Shown here: one piece after another, positions 11,942-50,921 of the stretch | Layout of the letters: each line of letters opens with the position of its first letter | Numbering within the stretch: position 1 is the first letter of the stretch | Origin: Chitinophagales bacterium | Lineage (GTDB): Bacteria; Bacteroidota; Bacteroidia; Chitinophagales; CAIOSU01 | DNA length: 64,000 bases | Assembly (NCBI GenBank): GCA_018401955.1 | Contig: JAGYJT010000016.1 | Span: 1 to 64,000, forward strand | Direction: 5' to 3' | Notes under the pieces: model-generated | Databases searched by the model: none | What the model saw: only the letters and a program-made list of their open reading frames with translations | Told to the model about the DNA's origin: nothing | Program-made: the position numbers and the translations under genes

Positions 11942-12811
11942 TTAGTGCCCCAAGTAATGCTTCAATGAGCGCGAATTGGTGGTTTTACGCAAACGGCGCA
12001 AAGCACGCTCTTTGATTTGGCGAACCCGCTCGCGGGTAAGGTCAAAAATCTTACCGATTTCTTCCAAGGTCATGTAGCCTTCGCCTTTAAGGCCATAGTA
12101 GTACATTACAATTTCGGCATCGCGCTTAGGTAGCATCGATAATACCTTGTTTATTTCCTTTTTCAACGATTCTTTCATCATTTGGCGCTCCGTATCGCTG
12201 GCATCGTCATCCACCAGCACATCATACAAGCTGCCACTATCGCCTTCTTGTCCCATTGGCGCATCCATGCTTATGTGGCGGCTAGCACCTTTTATCAGGT
12301 CTTCAATTTCTTTGCTGCTTATTTCAAGCAACTCTTCTAGTTCTTGGTGGGTTGGTTCTCGCTGAAACTCTTGCTCAAAAGCGCTCATCGCTTGGGTAAT
12401 CTTGTTATACGAGCCTACCTTATTCATCGGCATACGGACAATTCTCGATTGCTCCACCAAGCCTTGAAGTATGCTCTGCCTAATCCACCATACGGCATAA
12501 GATATAAACTTAAAGCCACGGGTTTCGTCAAACTTCTGGGCTGCTTTTATCAAGCCCAGGTTACCTTCGTTTACTAAGTCGCTAAGTGGTAGTCCTTGGT
12601 TTTGGTATTGCTTGGCTACTGATACTACAAACCTAAGGTTTGCTTTTACCAGGTGCTCCAATGCATCACTGTCCCCCTCCTTAATTCTTTGTGCTAGCTG
12701 CACCTCCTCATCCGCAGTTAATAGTTTTACTTTGGCTATCTCTTGCAGATATTTCTCCAAAGCTTGACTATCGCGTTGCGTAATCTGGTTAGTGATTTTT
12801 AGTTGTCTCAT
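11942..12811 (-). CDS. rpoD: Primary RNA polymerase sigma factor (RpoD/SigA, short Bacteroidota form)
   Basis: The housekeeping sigma factor. At 289 residues it lacks region 1.1, as in other Bacteroidota. Region 1.2 is ALEKYLQEIAKVKLLTADEE (about residues 18-37); region 2 holds NLRFVVSVAKQY, LPLSDLVNEGNLGLIKA and the -10/-7 recognition helix FKFISYAVWWIRQSI; region 3 follows with RIVRMP; region 4 ends with the helix-turn-helix MTLEEIGKIFDLTRERVRQIKERALRRLR. It is expected to read the TTG/TAnnTTTG promoters seen throughout this window. Confidence 0.96.
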   Translation of the reverse strand: MRQLKITNQITQRDSQALEKYLQEIAKVKLLTADEEVQLAQRIKEGDSDALEHLVKANLRFVVSVAKQYQNQGLPLSDLVNEGNLGLIKAAQKFDETRGFKFISYAVWWIRQSILQGLVEQSRIVRMPMNKVGSYNKITQAMSAFEQEFQREPTHQELEELLEISSKEIEDLIKGASRHISMDAPMGQEGDSGSLYDVLVDDDASDTERQMMKESLKKEINKVLSMLPKRDAEIVMYYYGLKGEGYMTLEEIGKIFDLTRERVRQIKERALRRLRKTTNSRSLKHYLGH

Positions 12812-46227: not shown

Positions 46228-46695
46228 TCAAGGTTCAGACAATTTAGAATACTCCGGAATGCTTGGGAGGAAACGGTAGGTACTTTTAGCCAGATCCAGG
46301 GCTACACAGTAAAAATCGTTACCGTTGCCAACCAATATATACGGAACCCGCAAAACGAGATTATAACGCGCCGCTTGTTCCATAGCGGCATCCGTTAACA
46401 ATACCTCCGGGGCTTTGCACTCTACAATGAGTTGCGGAGCCCCGGTTGTGTTATAGGCCACTATGTCGCAGCGCTTTTGGGTGCCGTTAAGGTTTATGCC
46501 CTTCTCTACAGCCAGCAAACTAGCAGTATAGCCTTTCTCTTCAATCAGATAATGGATAAGCAACTGCCGCACCCACTCTTCGGGCGTAAGCACCACGTAC
46601 TTTTTACGGATAATATCCCACACCTCCCTCCGCTGCTCCACCACGCGGAACTTTAGGTTGTATTTGGGGAAATTTATTGGGAAAGCGTGTGACAA
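46228..46695 (-). CDS. HsdR N-terminal-like protein (PD-(D/E)XK nuclease fold)
   Basis: A 155-residue protein like the N-terminal domain of type I restriction enzymes (HSDR_N_2). It has IRKKYVVLTPEEWVRQLLIHYLIEEKGY, which is typical, and the nuclease motif KRCDIVAY...LIVECKAPEV with Asp, Glu and Lys. The helicase part is absent, and so are hsdM and hsdS, so it is a stand-alone member, common in this phylum, with an unknown role. Start TTG at 46695; no ATG in frame fits better. Confidence 0.85.
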   Translation of the reverse strand: MSHAFPINFPKYNLKFRVVEQRREVWDIIRKKYVVLTPEEWVRQLLIHYLIEEKGYTASLLAVEKGINLNGTQKRCDIVAYNTTGAPQLIVECKAPEVLLTDAAMEQAARYNLVLRVPYILVGNGNDFYCVALDLAKSTYRFLPSIPEYSKLSEP

Positions 46696-47122: not shown

Positions 47123-48673
47123 TTAGAAAGGTACATCGTCATCATCTTCCGTAGGCCTATTCATTTTGCTTTGGCGAACGATAGCGTTGGAGTTGAAATC
47201 GTCAAAATCGGCTTCGCTAGGGCGGGGGATAGGGCCGCTGCCCATATCGTTAAAGCTCTCATCTTCCAAGTCGGCAAACTTGGCAAACTTGCTGATGAAC
47301 TTCGCACGCACGGTCTCCAAGGCACCGTTACGGTGCTTGGCTATGATAATTTCACCGATACCTTTAAGGCTCATACCGTTTTCGTCGGTATCCATGCCAT
47401 AGTACTCTGGGCGGTAAAGGAACACCACGATATCCGCATCCTGCTCAATCGCACCCGATTCACGAAGATCGCTCAGTTGTGGGCGCTTATCGCCGCCACG
47501 GGTTTCCACGGCACGGCTCAACTGCGATAGGGCTATTACCGGTATCTCCAGCTCCTTGGCCAAAGCCTTCAATCCACGAGAGATGGAACTGATTTCTTGC
47601 TCACGGTTACCACCGCCTTTACCATCGCCGCTACCACCGGTCATTAGCTGTAGGTAATCGACAATCACCATTGAAATGTCGTGTTGCATTTTCAAACGGC
47701 GGCATTTGGCGCGCAGCTCAAATATGTTGATGGCTGGGGTATCATCGATAAATATCGGTGCATCGCTCAGTCCGTCAATCTTGTGTGTTAGTTGTTCCCA
47801 CTCCCATTTCTCTAGGTTACCACGGCGTAGTTTATCACCAGGTATCTCCGCTTCGGCACTTATCAACCTGTTAACCAACTGCAACGAGCTCATCTCCAGC
47901 GAGAACAGGGCTACGGGTTTCTTAAAGTCGACAGCCGCGTTGCGGGCAATGGCCAATACAAAGGAGGTTTTACCCATACCTGGGCGGGCCGCCATAATCA
48001 CCAAATCCGATTTTTGCCAGCCACCAGTTAATCTATCCAATGCCGTAAAGCCGGTAGGCACGCCTGTAAGGCCATCTTCTTGTTCCCGCAGTTCTTCCAA
48101 TTGCTTAACGGCCTTGCTTAGTAGGCTGCTCATGCTATCGTAGCTGCGGCTAAGGTTCTGCTCGGCTACCGAAAAGAGATTCTGCTCCGCTTTATCCAGT
48201 AGCTGAAAAACATCCGTAGTATCTTCGTAAGAGTCGCGGATAATTTCACTGCTGATGCGAATAAGCTCACGCTGAATGTGCTTTTGGCTGATGATACGGG
48301 CGTGGTGCTCTACGTTGGCCGCCGAGGCCACCTTGTTGGTAAGGCCGGTAATGTACATCAATCCACCAGCCTCTTCCATTACGCCTTCCTTTTTTAGCTC
48401 TTCGCTAACGGTAAGCATATCAATAGGCTGCGAGGCGCCAAACAGGTTAAGTATGGCGCGGTAAATATGCTGATGGCTGTTTACATAAAAGCTATCCGGT
48501 TTAAGGATGTCGATTACAGAGCTCACGGCATCTTTTTCCAACATCAACGCACCCAAAACGGCCTCTTCCAATTCGCGTGCCTGTGGCGGCACTTTTCCGA
48601 ATTCCGAGGTCTCGAAATTCTTCTTGCGGTCGGTAAAAGAGCCTCTTCGAGTAGTATTTTGTTGGTCGGCCAT
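47123..48673 (-). CDS. dnaB: Replicative DNA helicase DnaB
   Basis: The ring helicase that opens the replication fork, 516 residues. The N-terminal domain (about 25-130) has KVPPQARELEEAVLGALMLEKDAV. The RecA-like ATPase has Walker A AARPGMGKTSFVLAIARN (about 228-245), Walker B MVIVDYLQLM, and the DnaB motifs IPVIALSQLSRAVE and QLSDLRESGAIEQDADIV. The acidic tail (RPTEDDDDVPF) is typical for the phylum. A TATCTTTG -7 element lies 36 nt upstream. No intein is present. Confidence 0.97.
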   Translation of the reverse strand: MADQQNTTRRGSFTDRKKNFETSEFGKVPPQARELEEAVLGALMLEKDAVSSVIDILKPDSFYVNSHQHIYRAILNLFGASQPIDMLTVSEELKKEGVMEEAGGLMYITGLTNKVASAANVEHHARIISQKHIQRELIRISSEIIRDSYEDTTDVFQLLDKAEQNLFSVAEQNLSRSYDSMSSLLSKAVKQLEELREQEDGLTGVPTGFTALDRLTGGWQKSDLVIMAARPGMGKTSFVLAIARNAAVDFKKPVALFSLEMSSLQLVNRLISAEAEIPGDKLRRGNLEKWEWEQLTHKIDGLSDAPIFIDDTPAINIFELRAKCRRLKMQHDISMVIVDYLQLMTGGSGDGKGGGNREQEISSISRGLKALAKELEIPVIALSQLSRAVETRGGDKRPQLSDLRESGAIEQDADIVVFLYRPEYYGMDTDENGMSLKGIGEIIIAKHRNGALETVRAKFISKFAKFADLEDESFNDMGSGPIPRPSEADFDDFNSNAIVRQSKMNRPTEDDDDVPF

Positions 48674-48709
48674 TGTTAAGGTAGTGTTAGGTGCTTTTTA
48701 GTAGGGGTT

Positions 48710-48717
48710 CAAAGATA
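48710..48717 (-). promoter_or_regulatory. Predicted -7 element of the dnaB gene
   Basis: TATCTTTG on the minus strand, exact TAnnTTTG, 36 nt before the dnaB start codon. Confidence 0.5.
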
Positions 48718-49116
48718 CCACCATCAATCCTATTTATGAGAACGTTGCAACAGATAAAATAATGCAAAATTTACCCACTTACTTACGCACAAAATATGCT
48801 TTCCTAGGCATGTTGCTATCCATTGTATATCAGTAGATAAGGCGTAATGCCAAACCGGTTATTAACAGCTGTGGAAAACCCAAAATTTATTTATACACAA
48901 CGTTGGTTTTTGGCTGTAAATTTTAAATGGCAAGTCCATTTGAGATTATAATTGCTTGAGTTGAAAGGGGGATAATATCAAATATTAAGCATAAGTTACC
49001 ATAAAAGGCAGGTAAAGCCAGCGTAACTAAGGTATAGGCGAAACACATTCTTCCGTTCATTGTTAACTAGTTGGCAATAGCATATCCACAGCCATGTTTT
49101 TTAAGCCAAAAAACGC

Positions 49117-49124
49117 TAATTTTG
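49117..49124 (+). promoter_or_regulatory. Predicted -7 element of the lepA gene
   Basis: TAATTTTG matches TAnnTTTG and lies 6 nt before the lepA ATG at 49131. Confidence 0.5.
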
Positions 49125-49130
49125 CAGCCT

Positions 49131-50921
49131 ATGAAGAACCTTCGTAACTTCTGTATTATTGCCCACATTGACCATGGTAAAAGTACTTTGGCGGATAGAT
49201 TGTTGTCGTTGACCAAAACGGTTAGCGAACGTGAGATGCAAGACCAAGTGCTGGATAACATGGACCTGGAGCGTGAGCGTGGCATAACTATCAAGAGCCA
49301 CGCCATTCAAATGAATTACCCATATAAGGGCGAGGAGTATACCTTTAACCTTATTGATACTCCCGGTCACGTCGATTTTTCTTACGAGGTGTCGCGTGCG
49401 TTAGCCGCCTGCGAGGGTGCCTTGTTGTTGGTTGATGCCACACAGGGTATACAGGCGCAAACCATTAGTAACCTATACTTGGCTATCGAGAACAATCTTG
49501 AAATTATCCCGGTAATCAACAAGATTGATATGGACGGTGCCATGATTGAAGAGGTAACCGACCAAATTGTTGACCTTGTTGGTTGCAAAGCCGAGGACAT
49601 ACTACTTGCCAGCGGCAAAACCGGTATTGGTATGGAGGGTATTTTGGCCGCTATTATCGAGCGCATACCCGCGCCCAAAGGCGACCCGGATGCGCCTTTG
49701 CAAGCCTTGATTTTCGATTCGTACTTTAATCCCTTCCGTGGGGTGGTGGCTTACTTTAGGGTAATTAATGGTACGCTTGCCAAAGGCGATAAGGTAAAGT
49801 TTGTAAATACTGGTAAGGTATACGAGGCCGATGAGGTAGGTATACTTCGTTTTAAGGATGAGCCAAAAGCCAGCATTGGTGCGGGCAACGTAGGTTACAT
49901 AATTACGGGCATCAAGGTTTCACGAGAGATTAAAGTAGGCGATACCATTACGCACTTTTCAAGCTCGGCCCCAAGTATCAAGGGCTTTGAGGATGTGAAG
50001 CCGATGGTATTTGCGGGTATTTACCCGATTGATAATGACGACTTTGAGGAGCTTCGCGAATCGTTGGAGAAACTGCAATTGAATGATGCATCGTTGATAT
50101 TTGAGCCAGAAAGCTCGGTAGCATTGGGTTTTGGTTTCCGTTGCGGTTTCTTGGGCATGCTGCACTTGGATATTATACAAGAGCGCTTGGAGCGTGAGTT
50201 TGATATGACGGTGATAACCACCGTGCCCAACGTATCGTACTTTGCTTATACCACAAAGGGCGAAAAGCTGGTAGTAAACAACCCAAGCGACTTGCCTGAC
50301 CCAAGTATGCTAGACTATGTAGAGGAGCCGTACATTAGGGCACAGGTAATTACCAAGCCTGAGTATATAGGTAGCATTATGAAGTTGTGCATGGACAAAC
50401 GTGGCATCCTTCAAAACCAAAGCTACCTTACGCCAACCCGCGTAGAGCTTACCTTTGAGATGCCATTGGCCGAGATTGTGTTCGATTTTTATGATAGATT
50501 GAAATCCATATCTAAGGGCTATGCTTCGTTTGATTACCACATGAACGGTTACAAGCAGGGCGAATTGGTGAAAATGGACATAAAGCTAAATGGCGAAAAC
50601 GTGGATGCGTTTTCATCGCTTATACACCGCGATAAGGCTTACGACTTTGGGCGCCGCCTATGTTCCAAGTTGAAAGACCTTGTGCCAAAGCAACAGTTCG
50701 TAATTGCCATACAAGCAGCCATTGGTGCCAAGATTATTGCCCGCGAAACCATTAGCGCCATGCGCAAAGACGTAACCGCCAAATGTTATGGTGGTGATAT
50801 TTCGCGTAAACGTAAGCTATTAGAAAAGCAGAAGAAGGGTAAGAAACGCATGCGCCAAGTGGGTAACGTAGAAGTGCCGCAAGCGGCGTTTATGGCGGTT
50901 TTAAAATTGAATGATGATTAA
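49131..50921 (+). CDS. lepA: Elongation factor 4 (LepA)
   Basis: A ribosome-bound GTPase that acts on stalled or mis-translocated ribosomes. The frame is open from 49071, but the ATG at 49131 gives the standard start [19 protein letters not shown] and a protein of 596 residues, the usual length. GTPase motifs: AHIDHGKST (G1), DTPGHVDF (G3), NKIDM (G4) and the switch with [10 protein letters not shown]. Domains II, III, V and the LepA-specific C-terminal domain ([21 protein letters not shown]) follow. Confidence 0.97.

Follow-up and report, generated by a model that had tools for sequence, protein, structure and literature searches.

Upstream of the replicative helicase gene dnaB in a Chitinophagales bacterium, a 41-nt core (48859-48899) holds three close-set DnaA boxes, and judging from its conservation and from related loci it is probably a DnaA-binding regulatory site of dnaB. 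The initial annotation had offered two readings of the surrounding gap, the chromosomal origin or a DnaA-regulated dnaB promoter. The second is favored by conservation of the core in the genus and by an order-wide enrichment of boxes upstream of dnaB that is unmatched at lepA, at an rpoD-like gene or at dnaA; the first had to be given up.

The window, by which we mean the whole 64,000-nt stretch analyzed, is contig C62 of a 153-contig draft assembly (3.49 Mb, 79% complete). Its 457-nt intergenic gap (48674-49130) separates the divergent genes dnaB (47123-48673, minus strand; 516 aa, NCBIfam TIGR00665, E 1.7e-167, 557.6 bits against a cut-off of 385.25) and lepA, encoding elongation factor 4 (49131-50921, plus strand, ATG at 49131; 596 aa, TIGR01393, E 1.5e-292, 971.4 bits). 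With these exact bounds, a GC content of 0.357 (0.437 for the window) and dnaB identified by its family, the earlier description of an AT-rich gap of this length beside the helicase gene was borne out. The -7 consensus of Bacteroidota promoters is TAnnTTTG, and by this consensus we take TATCTTTG (48710-48717, minus strand) and TAATTTTG (49117-49124, plus strand) to be the probable -7 elements of dnaB and lepA, respectively. The former is invariant in an alignment of five genomes; the latter is identical in the three congeners in which lepA adjoins dnaB. A sigma-70 promoter scan gave one weak match, not above shuffles, an Rfam scan of 48000-50000 gave a single match far under the gathering score, and the predicted fold of the dnaB leader was nothing unusual (z +1.3). 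Near the end of dnaB, 46228-46695 encodes a 155-aa protein with a match to HSDR_N_2, the domain at the N terminus of R subunits in type I restriction systems.

Three sites matching eight of the nine positions of the DnaA box had been reported in the gap, and all were recovered: TTTTCCACA (48870-48878, minus strand), TTATACACA (48891-48899, plus strand) and ATATCCACA (49082-49090, plus strand). The first two fit TTWTNCACA, and the 12-nt spacing between them proved correct on re-counting. A weaker box with seven of nine matches, TTATTAACA (48859-48867, plus strand), lies 2 nt from the 48870 box and is inverted relative to it, so that the core consists of an inverted pair and a third box 12 nt on. 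Taken from the window alone, the cluster is only marginally unusual. Across the whole window, 17 one-mismatch boxes were observed where 18.0 were expected, and the window is thus not enriched overall. In dinucleotide shuffles of the window, three such sites fell within some 457-nt stretch in 32 of 300, and two sites came within 21 nt of each other in 18 of 300.

Conservation within the genus sets the core apart. We aligned the gap of the window genome with those of four congeners, three of which have lepA here. Mean pairwise identity was 0.78 in the core, 0.53 on its dnaB side (48761-48858) and 0.47 on its lepA side (48913-49080), and the core ranked third of 319 41-nt windows, both higher-ranking ones overlapping it. 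Apart from the dnaB promoter end, the five genomes share a single conserved mid-gap block, 48859-48899; the lepA promoter end is conserved in the three congeners with lepA at this place. Between the two promoters, the core is the best-conserved stretch. Its letters differ among congeners, yet their likeness to DnaA boxes is mostly kept: the place of TTATTAACA is taken in the four congeners by TTCTCCACA, TTTTCAACA, TTTTCAACA and TTATTCACA, that of TTTTCCACA by TTATCAACA in three of four (the fourth, from G001, has no box), and that of TTATACACA by TTATGCACA in three and TTGTGCACA in the remaining one. In G001, where lepA and dnaB are on separate contigs, TTATGCACA and TTATTCACA are still found upstream of dnaB (L004). 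A further weak site nearer the dnaB promoter, TGTGCGTAA on the minus strand, reads TGTGGGTAA in two congeners. By comparison, none of the three congeners with lepA here has a box aligned with the 49082 site, which is probably a chance match. The divergent pattern TGTGNAWAA-N0-30-TTWTNCACA occurs once in the 3.49-Mb draft assembly, at 48870-48899.

We then counted strict boxes, defined here as TTWTNCACA or TTATCAACA, between -500 and -100 of the start of the DnaB match; because this match starts a little downstream of the gene's own start, most of the interval is intergenic. The dnaB set comprised 32 loci from 10 families (the best-scoring 30 of 59 genomes and two family loci). Control sets were the 30 best-scoring loci each for lepA and the rpoD-like gene, and 28 loci for dnaA (L092 and L107, whose match lies off the standard offset, were left out). 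Upstream of dnaB there were 39 strict boxes in 23 of the 32 loci, against a mean of 3.3 and a maximum of 10 in 300 shuffles, and TTWTNCACA alone occurred 33 times (mean 1.5, maximum 10 for 300 column-permuted motifs). Eight of the 10 families had at least one boxed dnaB locus; nine of the 32 loci and two of the 10 families had no strict box in this interval. In-register 400-nt windows from +100 to +1300 of the dnaB loci held none. The same interval contained three boxes in 3/30 lepA loci, three in 3/30 rpoD-like loci and nine in 9/28 dnaA loci, with shuffle means of 2.1 to 2.8. Fisher tests of the dnaB loci gave p = 6e-7 against lepA and 0.004 against dnaA, treating sequences as independent; these values are indicative only, because the loci are best-scoring, non-random and related. 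Boxes are present at 21 of the 30 dnaB loci that show no LepA motif within 1.5 kb upstream: they stay with dnaB and not with its neighbor lepA.

Counting from -400 to 0 instead gave 37 boxes in 23/32 loci for dnaB (shuffle mean 2.7), 10 in 10/28 for dnaA (mean 2.9, maximum 8) and nine in 6/30 for the rpoD-like gene (mean 2.6, maximum 6), with two congeners accounting for five of the nine. The latter two genes are thus mildly enriched, well below dnaB, and dnaB is not the sole gene above chance. The number, order and spacing of the boxes differ between families and their orientations are mixed, so there is no fixed box architecture; two loci of family f12 carry four strict boxes each, three of which are perfect TTATCCACA.

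In a wider Bacteroidota set (the best 80 of 143 dnaB loci, among them loci of the Pontibacter and Pedobacter groups and of Hymenobacter), strict boxes had a density of 0.47 per kb over the 900 nt preceding dnaB and of 0.09 per kb in the remainder of these loci, as raw values that include 60 nt of the match and carry no correction for base composition. One-mismatch boxes, also as raw counts, were most frequent just upstream of dnaB, with 53 in -300 to +100 of dnaB at 25 loci of the Pontibacter group, 10 in -300 to -100 at 11 loci of the Pedobacter group and 18 in -300 to -100 at 24 other loci. The 16 Hymenobacter loci did not show this peak, with none in -300 to +100 and four in -500 to -300.

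Could the gap be the origin itself, with DnaA opening the AT-rich DNA and DnaB loaded beside its own gene? The crowding of three boxes, one of them weak, into 41 nt of an AT-rich gap would suit oriC, as would the four-box f12 loci, and since few boxes lie upstream of dnaA in the order, the origin need not be beside dnaA. The GC-skew check that had been proposed for this reading contradicts it. Run on contigs and relatives' genomes, it gave no sign change, and no skew minimum, at the gap. In the window the skew is +0.023 over the 48.7 kb on one side and +0.049 over the 14.9 kb on the other, and in a congener contig where dnaB faces the other way (G004:C6, 217 kb) it is -0.022 and -0.035, single skew windows varying in sign. 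In another genome of the family, G006, the position of dnaB (0.69 Mb) falls inside the negative-skew arm of contig C1, where 36 of 37 20-kb samples between 0.3 and 2.075 Mb are negative (the exception, at 1.655 Mb, is +0.025). The two flanks of dnaB, sampled about 25-45 kb away, agreed in sign in 9/9 further genomes of the order, one flank being below 0.02 in four of the nine (G063, with one flank past the contig end, was left out); in the one-contig genome G051 the skew is weak and mixed. Because the sign holds across the gap, we consider an origin here most improbable.

Nor does dnaA lie at a skew switch in G004 or G006. The one switch found in G006, at about 240-300 kb on contig C1, goes from plus to minus, which under the usual polarity would mark a terminus; no minus-to-plus switch was reached. 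Near this change, four DnaA boxes fall within 84 nt (G006:C1:286599-286682; L245:6599-6682) between genes that by eye are lytic-transglycosylase-like and PhoH-like. This could be a terminus-side regulatory site, or an origin if the skew polarity is inverted.

Three other explanations were weighed against control of dnaB. The boxes might be chance matches in AT-rich DNA, or sites of another protein with a DnaA-box-like motif, as the marginal 32/300 shuffle result for the window would allow; the excess over shuffles of these AT-rich sequences (39 boxes to 3.3), and the far smaller number upstream of dnaA and the rpoD-like gene at similar GC, make chance very unlikely, and we rate another protein with the same motif, which sequence alone would allow, no higher. 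We give just as little credence to a site chiefly serving lepA, or both divergent genes. The core is indeed central between two probable promoters, but boxes precede lepA at a frequency near the shuffle mean in the order and are retained at most dnaB loci that have no LepA motif upstream. Somewhat less remote, and still unlikely, is a site that titrates DnaA or exchanges its nucleotide, akin to datA or DARS, which lies upstream of dnaB by descent and has no part in transcriptional control. Its attractions are the mixed box orientations and the distance of the core, central in the gap, from the -7 element of dnaB (at least 142 nt). The datA and DARS sites have a fixed multi-box architecture with accessory protein sites and act outside transcriptional control. 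Unlike these, the present layout is variable, and the boxes follow one gene, dnaB, through changes of neighbor and across families.

Regulation of dnaB thus remains our preferred reading, and dnaB is the likely gene under control of the cluster. From the comparisons above we infer binding by DnaA, an effect on dnaB, the direction of this effect and a role in the cell cycle. In this scheme DnaA, probably in its ATP form, would bind the inverted pair, whose members are 2 nt apart, together with the third box. Bound there, 142-182 nt upstream of the -7 element, it would alter dnaB transcription, and the TGTGCGTAA site may extend a DnaA filament from the core towards the dnaB promoter. The part of DnaA that reads the box bears the signature RDHSTV, which is present in DnaA from four congeners and from one member of the family. 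Activation seems more likely than repression, by our estimate about twice as likely, because of the upstream position of the core and the result in Mycobacterium tuberculosis described below. The supply of helicase would then track the amount of its loader, the initiator. Since the core sits about halfway between the divergent promoters, lepA might also be affected in this genus.

Pairs of boxes also occur at other genes. Searched on both strands of six genomes, the pair patterns gave 13, 10 and 24 matches, as against 4, 2 and 12 for the reversed patterns. One convergent pair, TTATCAACA-N-TGTGGATAA (L246:10558-10599), ends 84 nt before mraZ in G003, a gene assigned by a TIGR00242 match above the cut-off; mraZ heads the cluster of division and cell-wall genes. 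In the window's own genome the same pair stands at the end of contig C130 (L247:131-172), about 85 nt before an ATG that, by eye, appears to be the start of mraZ, and G004 has the same pattern, known there from the pattern match alone. An order-wide pattern search found the pair in three of 60 genomes (the window's own, G000, together with G003 and the more distant G055), which makes it a feature of the genus and not of the order.

In three congeners, two to three DnaA boxes crowd into about 41 nt directly before the rpoD-like sigma-70 gene, at L233:12651-12679 (G004:C5), G003:C33:203406 and G001:C13:62138. RpoD families are the best matches of its protein, yet under their cut-offs; from its start and its conservation we presume that it is the housekeeping sigma factor. 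Among the 30 best-scoring loci, boxes upstream of this gene were not general in the order. The window's assembly yielded no close orthologue of the protein, the best being 73% identical as against 99% in G003 and 90% in G001. Four near full-length RpoD-like proteins are encoded in that draft, and an RpoD-like sigma factor in the window itself (11942-12811) is 64% identical to the G004 protein. No gene for DnaA turned up in the draft (G000, 79% complete), although all four congeners have one; its absence is most likely an assembly gap.

If the proposal holds, control of helicase supply by the initiator would be recurrent or ancient wiring, and the sites at dnaB, mraZ and the rpoD-like gene provide a short list of candidate DnaA sites. 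Among the papers listed in our search of the open-access literature, there was no study of a DnaA regulon in Bacteroidota and no report of dnaB boxes of such breadth. We tentatively suggest, as an idea that may well prove wrong, that in a large part of Bacteroidota dnaB is the most conserved transcriptional target of DnaA, above dnaA itself. In the genus, mraZ and the rpoD-like gene would also belong to the regulon, and the initiator would jointly govern the supply of helicase, the expression of division genes and transcription in general.

The arrangement can be set beside several known systems. With a bacterial oriC it shares the clustering of DnaA boxes and the AT-rich gap around them; it differs in having no skew switch and in that the boxes follow dnaB across rearrangements. 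In E. coli, DnaA has a preference for box pairs separated by 2-3 bp (PMC11317965, in its passages on double boxes), and close-set boxes upstream of genes are common to both cases. Here, by contrast, the 2-nt pair is inverted and a third box is added, and dnaB is not among the double-box sites named in those passages.

Two distant groups, Caulobacter and Mycobacterium, already offer reports of DnaA acting upstream of dnaB, in the passages on dnaB of the papers cited here. In M. tuberculosis, according to those of PMC7738170, the region upstream of dnaB is bound by DnaA, and dnaB is under-expressed in a DnaA mutant with reduced binding there. The two cases have in common a DnaA site close to the gene for the replicative helicase; the phylum is another, and binding was measured there and is predicted here. 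For Caulobacter crescentus, the relevant passage of PMC8203912 (citing Hottes et al., 2005) places dnaB, with predicted DnaA boxes, in the DnaA regulon. Boxes are thus predicted upstream of the helicase gene in both. Caulobacter also belongs to another phylum, and its dnaB responds to DnaA, whereas the present case is known from sequence alone; in Bacteroidota, on the other hand, the boxes recur across many families.
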